Origin: an uncultured Opitutales bacterium
Lineage (GTDB): Bacteria; Verrucomicrobiota; Verrucomicrobiia; Opitutales; Seribacteraceae
DNA length: 45,917 bases
Direction: 5' to 3'
Assembly: GCA_905478775.1 (NCBI GenBank)
Contig: CAJQKB010000047.1
Span: 1 to 45,917, forward strand
In this document: positions 8,163 through 12,931 of the stretch, in pieces
Layout: every line of letters begins with the position of its first letter
Position numbering within the stretch: the first letter of the stretch is position 1
The notes under the pieces: generated by a model
Told to the model about the DNA's origin: nothing
Seen by the model: only the letters and a program-made list of their open reading frames with translations
Database searches by the model: none
Position numbers and translations under genes: made by a program

Positions 8163-9104
8163 ATGAAGAATGACGATTCAAAAAAAAATCGTCAAAGTGC
8201 AGAAATTACTTCCAAACCACTTTCTGATTTTTTACTGATTGAAAGGATTAATCAGTGCCCAAAATTAGCTTCTCTTAAAAGTATCAATGAGACATTAAGC
8301 GAGTTACTTGATTCTGAAGATAGTTTTGTGAGTCAAATTGCGGAGGTGATTCGGTTAGACCCTTCCCTTACAACACGAGTTTTAGATTTGGTGAACTCGA
8401 TATTCTTTGGCAGTAAAGAAGGACAAAGAATATCCGGGGTGGAAGAAGCATCGATTTTTTTGGGATTAAACAGAATAAAAGAACTTCTTGCTGCTACCCC
8501 AGTTATTGAGGAGATTGCCGAACTCGGTAAGAATGCATCATCCTTCCCTTGGATCAACTTTTGGAAGCATAGTATTGGCACGGCAATTATGACCCGTGAA
8601 ATATTGTCACTGGCCGAGAAGAAATACGAAGACGAATCCGATTATGTAGCAGGCTTACTTCATAACCTGGGCAAACTGATCCTTGCCATTACCTTTCCTG
8701 ATTTATTTCAAAAACTATGTTCTCAATCATTTCAAAATACTGATCATGTCATTGAGATTGAAAAAAAGATCATTGGCTGGGATCATGCTAAAATTGGAGC
8801 TTATTACCTTTGGAACCACCACATATCAGACGAAGTGGTGGAAGCAGTACACTGGCACAATAACCCGAAAGAATCGAAAGACCACAGCGATTTGGCATCT
8901 GCAATACAAATTGCTGATCTACTGACTTGCCAACTTGGAGTGCCGGGTATTGAAAATTGTCCCCCGGTAAAAGATAGTTATTTACAATCAGAGGGCTGGG
9001 CCATTCTTTTTGGCAAAAAAGAGGAGAATGAAATGAATGAGCTTACCCAAAATCTTGAATATACCCTGGAACGAGTTTCCAGAACCTTGCACGGGATTAT
9101 TTAG
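8163..9104 (+). CDS. HDOD-domain protein
   Basis: HDOD proteins are cytoplasmic signalling or stress proteins related to HD phosphohydrolases. Most lack the metal site and work by binding partners. This one has 313 residues. The domain opens with LPKL-like spacing (CPKLASLKSINETLSELLDS), followed by the typical VIRLDPSLTTRVLDLVNS segment (about 62-79) and the region LLHNLGKLIL (about 168-177). There the HD pair of true phosphohydrolases reads HN, which agrees with a non-catalytic role. It follows the small unknown gene by six bases. It meets the MamK-like gene tail to tail, with three bases between the stops. Confidence 0.88.
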   Translation: MKNDDSKKNRQSAEITSKPLSDFLLIERINQCPKLASLKSINETLSELLDSEDSFVSQIAEVIRLDPSLTTRVLDLVNSIFFGSKEGQRISGVEEASIFLGLNRIKELLAATPVIEEIAELGKNASSFPWINFWKHSIGTAIMTREILSLAEKKYEDESDYVAGLLHNLGKLILAITFPDLFQKLCSQSFQNTDHVIEIEKKIIGWDHAKIGAYYLWNHHISDEVVEAVHWHNNPKESKDHSDLASAIQIADLLTCQLGVPGIENCPPVKDSYLQSEGWAILFGKKEENEMNELTQNLEYTLERVSRTLHGII

Positions 9105-9107
9105 ACC

Positions 9108-10247
9108 TTACAGTCGGACCCATTGATCATCGCGAGCGGCCTTAGCCACTTTTAATGCACCAATCGCAACAAATGGCTTCACCTCTCTTGAAGAAATCGT
9201 TACCTCAGGGTCTTCATATCCATCATCTGCAAGTAAGCGCTGGAGTTCCTGGTCGATATTACGAATGCGACTCCCCCCTCCTGTCAGTATTATATTTTGC
9301 AGCAAGGAAAAAACGGACTGAGGAGATGCCATGGCAATGACTTTCTTGATCGATTCAAATACCTCCTGGAGTAATTGATTACAGGACTCTCCCACCTGCT
9401 TACCAATTTCAATCTTCCTTGGTTTCCCACCCACTGGAATTTTGACCCGTGCTCCGGACTCACTTTCTCCAGCATACGAGTAAGATTCCTTAAACTTACG
9501 AATCATGGATAAAGGCACTTCGACTTCTGGATATTCTTCACGAATTGCTTTATCCAAAAGCACATCGACTTCATTTCCAGCAAATGGAATACTTAATAAA
9601 TCCTCGGGCTTTGGAAAATATCCTTGGACAATACAAAAATCAGTCGTCCCAGCACCAATATCCACAAACAACGAATTACTCACTGGATCGCGGTATTCTG
9701 GGTCCTGAAGTTTATCTTCGTCCCTCATTCCCAAAGCAGCTAAGAAAGGCTCCGGTATAAATAATATACCATCGAATGCTCCTTTGGCCGCCTTTTTAAG
9801 GTTTTCCTTTGCATCTGCATCTGCAACCGCAGGAATTCCAATTACACAGAGGACTTCTCGTTTATATTCCGGATCCACTTTACTGCGCAAGTATTTGAGG
9901 AATGATTGAGTTGCTTCTAAATCACTCACCACTCCATCGCTTAATGGATTGACCAAACGTAAATGAAGTTCATTCGCGATTGCATCATCCCCATGAAGCA
10001 TCTTTGAATTACCCGGTAGAATTCCGGATAAAATTCCGTCTTCAGGATACCCCACCACAGTGGGAATTAAAGTGCCGGTATTTTCATCAGAACTCGGTTT
10101 AGAAAGCTTTGTAATAAAACAGGATTGCAGGGTTCCTAAATCTAAACCGACATGTAACTTCCTTTTCTTATCTCCGCTGGAAGCAAGATCATTTTCTCCA
10201 GAAGATTTAATTCCTGTTGGTTCGTTTTTAGTAGTTGATTCTGACAT
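9108..10247 (-). CDS. MamK-like bacterial actin (actin/Hsp70-fold filament protein)
   Basis: Actin-fold ATPase of 379 residues that resembles MamK, the magnetosome-aligning filament protein, more than MreB, ParM or DnaK. Matching motifs: phosphate-1 GLDLGT (34-39), VVGYPEDGI (64-72), PLSDGVVSDLEA (101-112), VIGIPA (135-140), EPF with E166 (the MamK catalytic-Glu position), phosphate-2 DIGAGTTD (196-203), and adenosine motif QNIILTGGGSRIR (317-329). The blocks from DIGAGTTD through PKPEDLLSIPFAGNEVD align without gaps to MamK as I remember it. The first 30 residues are a polar extra tail. No other magnetosome genes are present. It lies 89 bases downstream of an acidic coiled-coil protein on the same strand. 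The MamK assignment is by motif recall, not by a search. Confidence 0.82.
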   Translation of the reverse strand: MSESTTKNEPTGIKSSGENDLASSGDKKRKLHVGLDLGTLQSCFITKLSKPSSDENTGTLIPTVVGYPEDGILSGILPGNSKMLHGDDAIANELHLRLVNPLSDGVVSDLEATQSFLKYLRSKVDPEYKREVLCVIGIPAVADADAKENLKKAAKGAFDGILFIPEPFLAALGMRDEDKLQDPEYRDPVSNSLFVDIGAGTTDFCIVQGYFPKPEDLLSIPFAGNEVDVLLDKAIREEYPEVEVPLSMIRKFKESYSYAGESESGARVKIPVGGKPRKIEIGKQVGESCNQLLQEVFESIKKVIAMASPQSVFSLLQNIILTGGGSRIRNIDQELQRLLADDGYEDPEVTISSREVKPFVAIGALKVAKAARDDQWVRL

Positions 10248-10336
10248 TTTGCAAAGGGATTAGTAAAGGGATGTAATATAACTAAATATTTTATATTTTT
10301 GGCAACGAAAACCTTCAGTTGTTAATAAATTTATAA

Positions 10337-10903
10337 TTATTCTGAAGATAACAACTTATCAATCATCTCTTCAATTTCATCAAACTTCAGTCCCGTTCCA
10401 ACCGGTGGGTCTAAGTCCGATTCTACATCCTGTTGGGGACTAATAACTTCCTCTTTATTTTCATCCTCGCTACTAATTCCCACCTCTTCTTCAATGGGTA
10501 ATTCTTCAATGGGTTCGGGTTCTTGAGGCAAAGGAAGCTGCGTACTACCTAACTGACTTAAAAGAGTTTCCAACTTACTGGAAATCTTTTCAAATTTTTT
10601 CACCATTCCCGAAACTGAATCATTTACACGACTGGCCACACGAGCCTCAAAACGGGCCGCAAACAAGTCAAATGCAACAGCAAGTTCCTCCGCACGGGCG
10701 GATTCGTCATCAAACATTTCCTTGAGCTTGGCTTTTTTCTCTGCCGGTTCCAGGGAACTCGTTTTAGCCCAAGCAACCACAAGCAGTGGAATTTCATTTT
10801 TGAGAACATCAATCGCTCCATTTTCATCACCTACCAATCTCTTTACGCAGGCTCTCCGAAAACCGCCCTTCAATGCTTCCAATGGACTTCCGCTAGTACT
10901 CAT
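10337..10903 (-). CDS. Acidic coiled-coil protein, possible partner of the MamK-like actin
   Basis: A 188-residue cytoplasmic protein of no family I recognise. It has three visible parts. Residues 1-75 form a helical, Ala/Leu-rich domain. Residues about 78-118 form a helix with heptad-like spacing (VASRVNDSVSGMVKKFEKIS), probably a coiled coil. After that comes a Pro/Glu linker (121-165) with a net strong negative charge, then a short C-terminal amphipathic helix (LKFDEIEEMIDKLLSSE, 172-188). Acidic linkers and short helices are common in filament adaptors, for example MamJ for MamK, but there is no sequence match to MamJ. It is encoded just upstream of the actin gene in the same direction. 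A role as its regulator or anchor is inference. Confidence 0.65.
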   Translation of the reverse strand: MSTSGSPLEALKGGFRRACVKRLVGDENGAIDVLKNEIPLLVVAWAKTSSLEPAEKKAKLKEMFDDESARAEELAVAFDLFAARFEARVASRVNDSVSGMVKKFEKISSKLETLLSQLGSTQLPLPQEPEPIEELPIEEEVGISSEDENKEEVISPQQDVESDLDPPVGTGLKFDEIEEMIDKLLSSE

Positions 10904-10945: not shown

Positions 10946-11773
10946 TTATTCTAAACTAAGCTGTTCATTTTCCCACAAATTTGCCTTACTTAATAATTCA
11001 TTCATTTGATCGGATTTAAAATTCAACTTCTCGATCAAAAAGCGCATAAAATCGGGGGCAATATCCGCCTCGAAAATGGGTCCCTCATTTAAATAACCAA
11101 ACCTCCTTGCATGAAGTGCCTGTCGATCCATGCCCAGTTTATCCATCCACGACGGATTCCAACCCGATTCGCAGAAATTTAAATAATAAGATTCATCATG
11201 CCCGTATAATTTCTCTCCCACCAAAGGAAAGCCAATTGATTGTGCATGAACTCGAATTTGATGCTTTCTTCCCGTTTTGGTTACCACCGAAACAAAAGTG
11301 TAGCCCTCCGCACAATGTAGCGGACAAAAACGAGTCTCTGCTTTTTTCGAGGTTCTACTCTTTGCAGTCACTCGTTGTTTAACAAAGACCCTGCTATCCG
11401 GGTCGTTTCCAAGAAAACCAGCGACTTGTACCTCCTCCTTCATTTCCCCCTCCACAATCCCTAAGTAAGTCCTCTTTACCTTTTTTTCCTCCAGTGCCTT
11501 TTGCCACTGCCGCCCTGCAGCTTTAGTTTTCGCCATTACCACCACTCCGCTCGTCTCTCGATCCAATCTCCCCACTAAAAAGATTGTATCAATTCCTAAC
11601 AACTCTCTTGTTGCTCCCACCAAACTTGACCAGGGACCGGATTTCGAGGGATGACAGACAAACCACCCCGGTTTATTGACTACTACAATGTCCTCATCCT
11701 CAAAGAGGATAGATTCTCGAAGGAGTTCTTCAGTGATTAATGGTGCATCTTTATTTTGGGTGGAAAATTTCAT
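10946..11773 (-). CDS. RluA-family RNA pseudouridine synthase
   Basis: Isomerises uridine to pseudouridine in rRNA or tRNA. It has 275 residues. The catalytic aspartate is D71 in GRLDRETSG (family motif HRLDRxTSG, with Gly in place of His). The TGRKHQIRVH segment and the downstream LVGEKLYG are also RluA hallmarks. No N-terminal S4 domain is present, so it belongs with the shorter RluA/TruC-like forms, and the target base cannot be told from sequence. Two more genes follow within 45 and 90 bases on the same strand, so this may be the first gene of the operon carrying the MamK-like actin. Confidence 0.88.
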   Translation of the reverse strand: MKFSTQNKDAPLITEELLRESILFEDEDIVVVNKPGWFVCHPSKSGPWSSLVGATRELLGIDTIFLVGRLDRETSGVVVMAKTKAAGRQWQKALEEKKVKRTYLGIVEGEMKEEVQVAGFLGNDPDSRVFVKQRVTAKSRTSKKAETRFCPLHCAEGYTFVSVVTKTGRKHQIRVHAQSIGFPLVGEKLYGHDESYYLNFCESGWNPSWMDKLGMDRQALHARRFGYLNEGPIFEADIAPDFMRFLIEKLNFKSDQMNELLSKANLWENEQLSLE

Positions 11774-12395: not shown

Positions 12396-12665
12396 TCATT
12401 CGTAATGGGTCCACATTCGGAGGACAAGTACCGTCTTACCTTCTTTATCCACTTCGTAAACTAGGCGGTGCTGAATATTAATTCGTCTCGAATAAAAGCC
12501 CTGCAGGTCACCTTTCAGACTTTCAAAAGGAGGGGGATTTTGAAAAGGATCCACTCCCAAAATGGCAATCAGTCTCTGGGCGGATTCCTTTAAGTTACTC
12601 TTGGCCAATTTCTTCGCATCACGCTGAGCATGTCGGGAAAAAACAACCCTGTAATTATTCACCAC
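12396..12665 (-). CDS. yoeB: YoeB-type ribosome-dependent mRNA interferase toxin
   Basis: RelE-fold toxin that cuts mRNA in the ribosomal A site when the antitoxin is degraded. It has 89 residues, normal for YoeB. Residues matching the E. coli YoeB active site are present: E48 (in PFESLKG), R67 (in IQHRLVY), and H87/Y88 at the C-terminus (THYE). The core GFYSRRINIQHRLVY is typical. The start is one of two adjacent GTG codons (12665 or 12662), overlapping the antitoxin stop, so the genes are coupled. It has all the residues expected of an active toxin. Confidence 0.92.
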   Translation of the reverse strand: MVNNYRVVFSRHAQRDAKKLAKSNLKESAQRLIAILGVDPFQNPPPFESLKGDLQGFYSRRINIQHRLVYEVDKEGKTVLVLRMWTHYE

Positions 12666-12901
12666 TCAAGCTCGTCACTGGCTTGTTCAATCCCTTCCTC
12701 ACTTGCCTGTTTGATCGAGTCGACCATGCCAGGAATGGCTTGAAGATGAAGGGTCTCCTGGATCGCCCGCCAATCACTCTCCGAAAGTAGAACCGCATTG
12801 GAACGCTTCCCGGTGATTTGAATAGGTTGGTGGGAATCATTGGCTTCATCAATGAGGGAATATAAATTCTTTCTAGCCTGAGTTGCGGAAATCGTAGTCA
12901 T
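12659..12901 (-). CDS. yefM: YefM/Phd-type antitoxin
   Basis: Antitoxin and autorepressor of the YoeB toxin encoded directly downstream. From the ATG at 12901 it has 80 residues and begins in the family manner (MTTISATQARKNLYSLIDEA). The fold-forming N-terminal DNA-binding part is followed by PIQITGKRSNAVLLSESDW. The C-terminal third (SIKQASEEGIEQASDELEW) is acidic and forms the toxin-wrapping tail. An in-frame GTG at 12928 would add nine residues but lies inside the repeat-rich operator, so I prefer the ATG. The pair lies tail to tail with hpf. Confidence 0.92.
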   Translation of the reverse strand: MTTISATQARKNLYSLIDEANDSHQPIQITGKRSNAVLLSESDWRAIQETLHLQAIPGMVDSIKQASEEGIEQASDELEW

Positions 12902-12910
12902 AACAGAAAA

Positions 12911-12931
12911 GCGTACGCATTTACGCACGCA
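12911..12931. promoter_or_regulatory. Probable YefM-YoeB operator
   Basis: GCGTACGC (12911-12918) is a perfect palindrome. ACGCA occurs three times in a row (12915-12919, 12923-12927, 12927-12931). It lies 10-30 bases upstream of the antitoxin ATG, where YefM-type autorepressors bind. The known E. coli site has a TGTACA core, and here the core is GTAC within TGCGTACGC on the gene strand. Binding is inferred from place and symmetry. Confidence 0.5.

Follow-up and report, generated by a model that had tools for sequence, protein, structure and literature searches.

A conserved helical protein, a probable partner, encoded beside the actin BeeR in Verrucomicrobiota

The window analysed here, a stretch of 45,917 nucleotides from an uncultured Opitutales bacterium, encodes an actin of the BeeR family and, directly upstream, a small helical protein whose relatives accompany BeeR in most of the lineages that possess it. 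The actin family itself is already known (BeeR, published in 2025), and the partner appears to represent an undescribed protein family. The two genes are proposed to form a two-component cytoskeletal module, in which BeeR provides the filament and the partner acts as its dedicated adaptor or regulator; the probability of this reading is estimated at about 0.6. The wider claim, that this is a distinct and ancient system of the Verrucomicrobiota in which a new motif-bearing family controls a three-stranded actin tube and places a cargo, is put at even odds. BeeR was published as a new filament architecture without a known function or binding partner, and the partner family provides a concrete lead. 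Since the partner is also present in Opitutus terrae, the species from which BeeR was purified, the question of function is open to simple tests.

Identity and distribution of the actin

Both open reading frames are found at the positions, sizes (379 and 188 amino acids) and strand given in the first-pass annotation (Table 1), which had described the actin as MamK-like. The similarity to MamK is real (NCBIfam model, 230.6 bits, E 2.5e-68); however, the BeeR model scores far better (517.8 bits, with MreB at 67.4 bits), and the PDB matches are led by BeeR (8r2n, E 2e-105, 355.7 bits) over MamK (5jyg, E 4e-43, 151 bits). On these comparisons, the actin is a BeeR rather than a MamK, and it shares 44% identity with the BeeR protein of O. 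terrae. MamK is the closest actin family outside BeeR in both the model and the structure matches; as regards a sister relationship, the MamK/BeeR/MreB tree includes a single MamK, which sits on a long branch. The assignment of E166 and D196 to the catalytic positions of MamK holds, as residue counts on the 5jyg alignment place them opposite E143 and D161. In the whole genome, the best score of the MamK model is 231 bits, which is under its curated cut-off of 400 bits, and a separate, ordinary MreB (448 bits) is also encoded.

The BeeR score of 517.8 bits lies below the curated equivalog cut-off of 530 bits of the NCBIfam model (NF053558). This cut-off is reached in 5 of 92 relatives and thus leaves out most of the wider BeeR clade; the term BeeR family is used here for the clade in a tree of 99 distinct BeeR genes, not for the narrow NCBIfam equivalog. 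As the cut-off is too high for nearly all relatives, annotation pipelines may miss their BeeR genes. At two further loci (L149 and L150, in genomes G085 and G070), an open frame of about 511 amino acids encodes another actin-like protein, which is placed on a long separate branch and matches BeeR weakly (40-48 bits).

According to the available part of the original report, BeeR of O. terrae forms three-stranded tubular actin filaments, is able to polymerise by itself and carries a disordered N-terminal extension of 30 to 50 residues; its hosts are described there as non-magnetotactic Verrucomicrobiota, and no function is given (Bergeron et al. 2025, PMC11929497, PDB 8r2n). The same part of the report makes no mention of a neighbouring partner gene. 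The window protein also has an N-terminal extension, a Ser/Lys-rich tail (residues 1-30) judged disordered by its composition, which precedes the actin core (residues 31-378). The hydrophobic cross-strand pocket of the O. terrae protein is kept (I277/L284 to V272/I279), as is E148 of the cross-strand interface. Several polar residues of this interface differ (E149A, R157K, R242E, N246E, T307K and Q310A), one of them changing to the opposite charge, so that three strands are not assured for the window BeeR. Where PMC11929497 names R252 and N380 as interface residues, the chain of PDB 8r2n as numbered here has H252 and Q380; the remaining interface residues checked agree between the two sources.

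BeeR was found in nearly every sufficiently complete member of the window's family; its occurrence in the rest of the order and phylum is patchy, with 18 positive genomes among 388 drawn across the phylum. The distribution is chromosomal and follows the gene tree of the hosts; the 79 named BeeR loci carry almost entirely the labels Opitutales, Opitutae, Opitutaceae or other Verrucomicrobiota, and a few names are apparently misassigned. A viral origin of the actin was considered and rejected, since the viral contig search returned no contig encoding BeeR and the matches to phage families were weak and generic.

Table 1. Features of the BeeR locus in the window (positions are those of the whole window)
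Feature	Position	Strand	Basis
BeeR-family actin, 379 aa	9108..10247	(-)	ORF; NCBIfam BeeR model; PDB 8r2n; tree
Gap of 89 bases between partner stop and BeeR start	10248..10336	(-)	sequence; spacing over loci
BeeR partner, 188 aa (P0002)	10337..10903	(-)	ORF; AF2 pLDDT 82.5; conserved directly upstream of BeeR
C-terminal motif helix FDEIEEMIDKLLSSE, partner residues 174-188, proposed BeeR-binding element	10340..10384	(-)	motif enrichment; AF2 helix 174-186
Pseudouridine synthase (PF00849)	10946..11773	(-)	Pfam; neighbour clustering

Linkage and co-occurrence of BeeR and its partner

An iterated HMM was started from the 188-residue protein as its only seed and run against every ORF of the loci, among which some genomes are represented twice. 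It converged after four rounds, with 105 ORFs; each of these immediately precedes BeeR on the same strand, and the neighbours of the actin gene in related genomes are therefore clearly not random. Among the 99 distinct BeeR genes, 77 have the partner, 14 lack it and three have no upstream DNA. In the other five, the upstream ORF carries the same C-terminal motif behind an N-terminal part that is matched weakly or not at all, which brings the BeeR genes preceded by a partner or a motif-bearing ORF to 82 of the 96 with upstream DNA. Nine of the 14 partnerless BeeRs form one clade with 100% support, which suggests that the partner was lost there. The whole-genome profile detected no partner anywhere in eight of the nine genomes of this clade, so that the partner is not essential for every BeeR; it also detected none in the L111/L121 pair or in G052. 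O. terrae was recognised in locus L035, which encodes residues 27-382 of PDB 8r2n without a single difference; here, the partner (153 amino acids, L035:2706-3164) lies directly upstream of BeeR and is matched by the whole-genome profile with an E-value of 4e-9. Neighbour clustering revealed that the linkage between partner and BeeR holds across orders while the other neighbours change.

The spacing between the two genes has a median of 51 bases and is at most 120 bases in 102 of 103 loci; their common strand and short gap in the window are consistent with one transcript. The pseudouridine synthase gene, located directly upstream of the partner on the same strand with a gap of 42 bases, is possibly co-transcribed with it; beyond the window's family, neighbour clustering places it outside the conserved module. 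Promoter and terminator scans at the locus did not exceed chance level. On the other side, a gene for an HDOD-domain protein (8163-9104, plus strand) converges with BeeR and recurs at this position in about 33 loci, all from the window's family. It was rejected as a third component, as it is downstream, convergent and restricted to this family. Further upstream, two overlapping genes for 89 amino acids each (12396-12665 and 12659-12928, minus strand) look, by eye from their translations, like a RelE/YoeB-type toxin and a Phd/YefM-type antitoxin.

The association also holds when whole genomes are searched with the profiles. Both genes were detected in 38 of 92 relatives, BeeR only in four, the partner only in one and neither in 49; in the phylum-wide draw of 388 genomes, the corresponding numbers are 13, 5, 2 and 368. 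Fisher's test gives p-values of 4e-20 and 1.5e-18, respectively, which are indicative only, because relatedness of the genomes inflates them. Most of the exceptions can be explained: G029 and G033 represent contig ends, G132 is a marginal match within a frame of 1074 amino acids, and all five BeeR-only genomes of the phylum draw possess a partner gene or a motif-bearing ORF upstream of BeeR. Two genomes (G051 and G055) carry an intact partner that is unlinked to BeeR; thus, the association outlasts the loss of linkage. G461, the ninth genome of the partnerless clade, has two BeeR genes, one of which adjoins a partner. In G387, BeeR is absent and the partner persists as a remnant with two stops (locus L136), an apparent joint loss of both genes; this remnant adjoins genes resembling type II secretion pseudopilins. 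Apart from a contig end, no intact partner was found in a genome without BeeR.

Anatomy of the partner and its C-terminal motif

In the AlphaFold2 model of the 188-amino acid partner, two helices (residues 7-23 and 27-48) precede a long one (53-120), from which a disordered, acidic and proline-containing linker (121-173; 16 D/E against 2 K/R) leads to the C-terminal helix (174-186). This layout agrees with the helical domain, coiled coil, Pro/Glu linker and terminal helix read from the sequence by the first-pass annotation. That annotation had further described the protein as acidic and its design as typical of filament adaptors. Its adaptor-like design is indeed conserved, but the acidity is restricted to the window's family, and the linker of Opitutaceae partners is Pro/Ala-rich. 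The model of a distant Opitutaceae-type partner (L118, 20% identity) has the same topology, in which two helices and a longer third one are followed by a disordered linker that ends in a short helix at the C-terminus. Across the partner family, the N-terminal domain and a C-terminal motif are kept.

The motif reads approximately F-D-[DE]-I-x-x-M-I-D-x-[LMVI]-L, with IxxMIDxxL as its core. A strict form of it, sought in the last 45 residues, is present in 72 of 80 distinct partners and in 15 of 2199 other ORFs. A notable helical moment was calculated for two of the motif peptides, that of the window and one other, and not for the other four. Profile comparisons between disjoint groups connect the window family with Limisphaerales-type partners (E 2e-12) and these with Opitutaceae partners (E 5e-15), whereas the direct comparison of the window family with Opitutaceae partners yields only 0.006. 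Homology of the latter two groups is thus supported at the sequence level through the Limisphaerales-type members.

No Pfam domain matched above the cut-off in 30 members of the family, and Foldseek with the partner model returned no match at an E-value of 0.001 or better. VIA-align gave Z-scores of at most 6.7 against generic helical bundles such as FliT, an uninformative result for a helical protein. A literature search of papers outside subscription found no description of the family.

Near the C-terminus of BeeR, the position of K366 is occupied by lysine in 75 of the 77 rows with a partner, and none of the nine rows of the partnerless clade has a lysine there. The K366 region presumably lines the actin groove, so that the lysine could meet the acidic residue of the motif. 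The correlation reflects one evolutionary event, and K366 is kept at three loci without a detected partner (L111, L121 and L133); the correlation is therefore taken as a lead only.

Proposed role of the module and known systems

We infer that the partner binds BeeR and couples it to a cargo, as follows. BeeR would polymerise with ATP into a stiff filament, as others have demonstrated for the O. terrae protein. The N-terminal helical and coiled-coil domain of the partner probably oligomerises, holds a cargo or cell site, or does both, and the flexible linker would give the C-terminal IxxMIDxxL helix enough reach to dock on BeeR. By analogy to other actins, the docking site is most likely the hydrophobic groove between BeeR subdomains IA and IIA. 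Clustered C-terminal helices would then capture, nucleate or cap BeeR filaments, thereby coupling them to the cargo. Two observations speak against such a module: the partnerless clade of nine BeeRs, and the ability of O. terrae BeeR to polymerise alone.

Alternatively, the partner could be a sequestering or depolymerising regulator, which keeps BeeR monomeric until needed and has no cargo. This reading is regarded as rather unlikely, although the stable pairing with BeeR would suit it and the closest architectural match is arcadin-2, in which a non-conserved linker connects the core with a conserved C-terminal helix that binds crenactin in its hydrophobic groove and depolymerises it (PMC5173319). 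The long helix 53-120 of the model, however, points to oligomerisation, and an oligomer would suit multivalent capture better than the sequestration of monomers; for this reason, the role of an adaptor or nucleator is considered more likely than that of a sequesterer.

It is also conceivable, albeit doubtful, that the contacts are reversed, with the N-terminal domain binding BeeR and the C-terminal helix binding another target, for instance the membrane or a protein of cell division. Indeed, the N-terminal domain is conserved too, and the motif resembles other docking tails in being short and in having conserved hydrophobic positions. Typical membrane-targeting helices are basic, whereas the motif helices are acidic, and the partnerless clade has lost K366, a C-terminal position that would lie at the groove by analogy.

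The same two-gene logic, including a C-terminal actin-binding helix as in ParR, is found in plasmid partition, which would make BeeR a DNA-moving filament and the partner its centromere-binding adaptor. This is improbable: a plasmid search returned only MreB-level matches to the actin (25-27% identity), for which the partition reading was disfavoured, and no relative was present in the viral contigs. The distribution is chromosomal and lineage-following, both AlphaFold2 models predict an all-helical fold without the strand of the ParR ribbon-helix-helix domain, and the partner follows its upstream neighbour at a distance of only 42 bases. Equally little credence is given to the view that the linkage reflects operon inertia between genes that do not work together. 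No interaction between BeeR and the partner is known, which would allow it, but the linkage persists across orders as other neighbours change, the partner is kept when unlinked, and the only intact copy without BeeR sits at a contig end. The remnant of a lost magnetosome island, which the first-pass annotation had offered and for which the place of MamK as the nearest other actin family would speak, can practically be dismissed, as model and structure matches give BeeR, which occurs in nearly all relatives of the window's family, follows its hosts in the tree and belongs to lineages described as non-magnetotactic, and as the three models searched in the whole genome (MamK, MamP and MamQ) stay under their curated cut-offs. 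The other suggestion of that annotation, a non-magnetosomal actin filament system near MamK, is supported by the BeeR identity and the conserved adaptor-like neighbour.

The proposed module of BeeR filament and adaptor resembles several characterised systems in part. The window actin shares its family, N-terminal tail, catalytic residues and hydrophobic cross-strand pocket with O. terrae BeeR; it differs in falling just under the NCBIfam cut-off and in several polar interface residues. In the crenactin/arcadin-2 system, an actin is likewise encoded with a small protein of core, non-conserved linker and conserved C-terminal helix; however, that system is archaeal, binding and depolymerisation have been demonstrated there, and the likeness is one of architecture, with no sequence similarity claimed. 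In type II plasmid partition, the actin ParM is likewise bound by the C-terminal helix of a small adaptor, ParR, as predicted here for BeeR, and this helix uses the same groove on ParM, but no plasmid link, centromere or ribbon-helix-helix domain was seen at the BeeR locus. In the magnetoskeleton, MamK is the nearest actin outside BeeR, and the acidic MamJ joins the filament to its cargo (PMC5059902); in the partner family, acidity is not conserved, MamP and MamQ are under cut-off, and the likeness to MamJ is one of description only. If the motif binds the groove of BeeR, it would be another C-terminal helix that controls an actin at the same hot spot.
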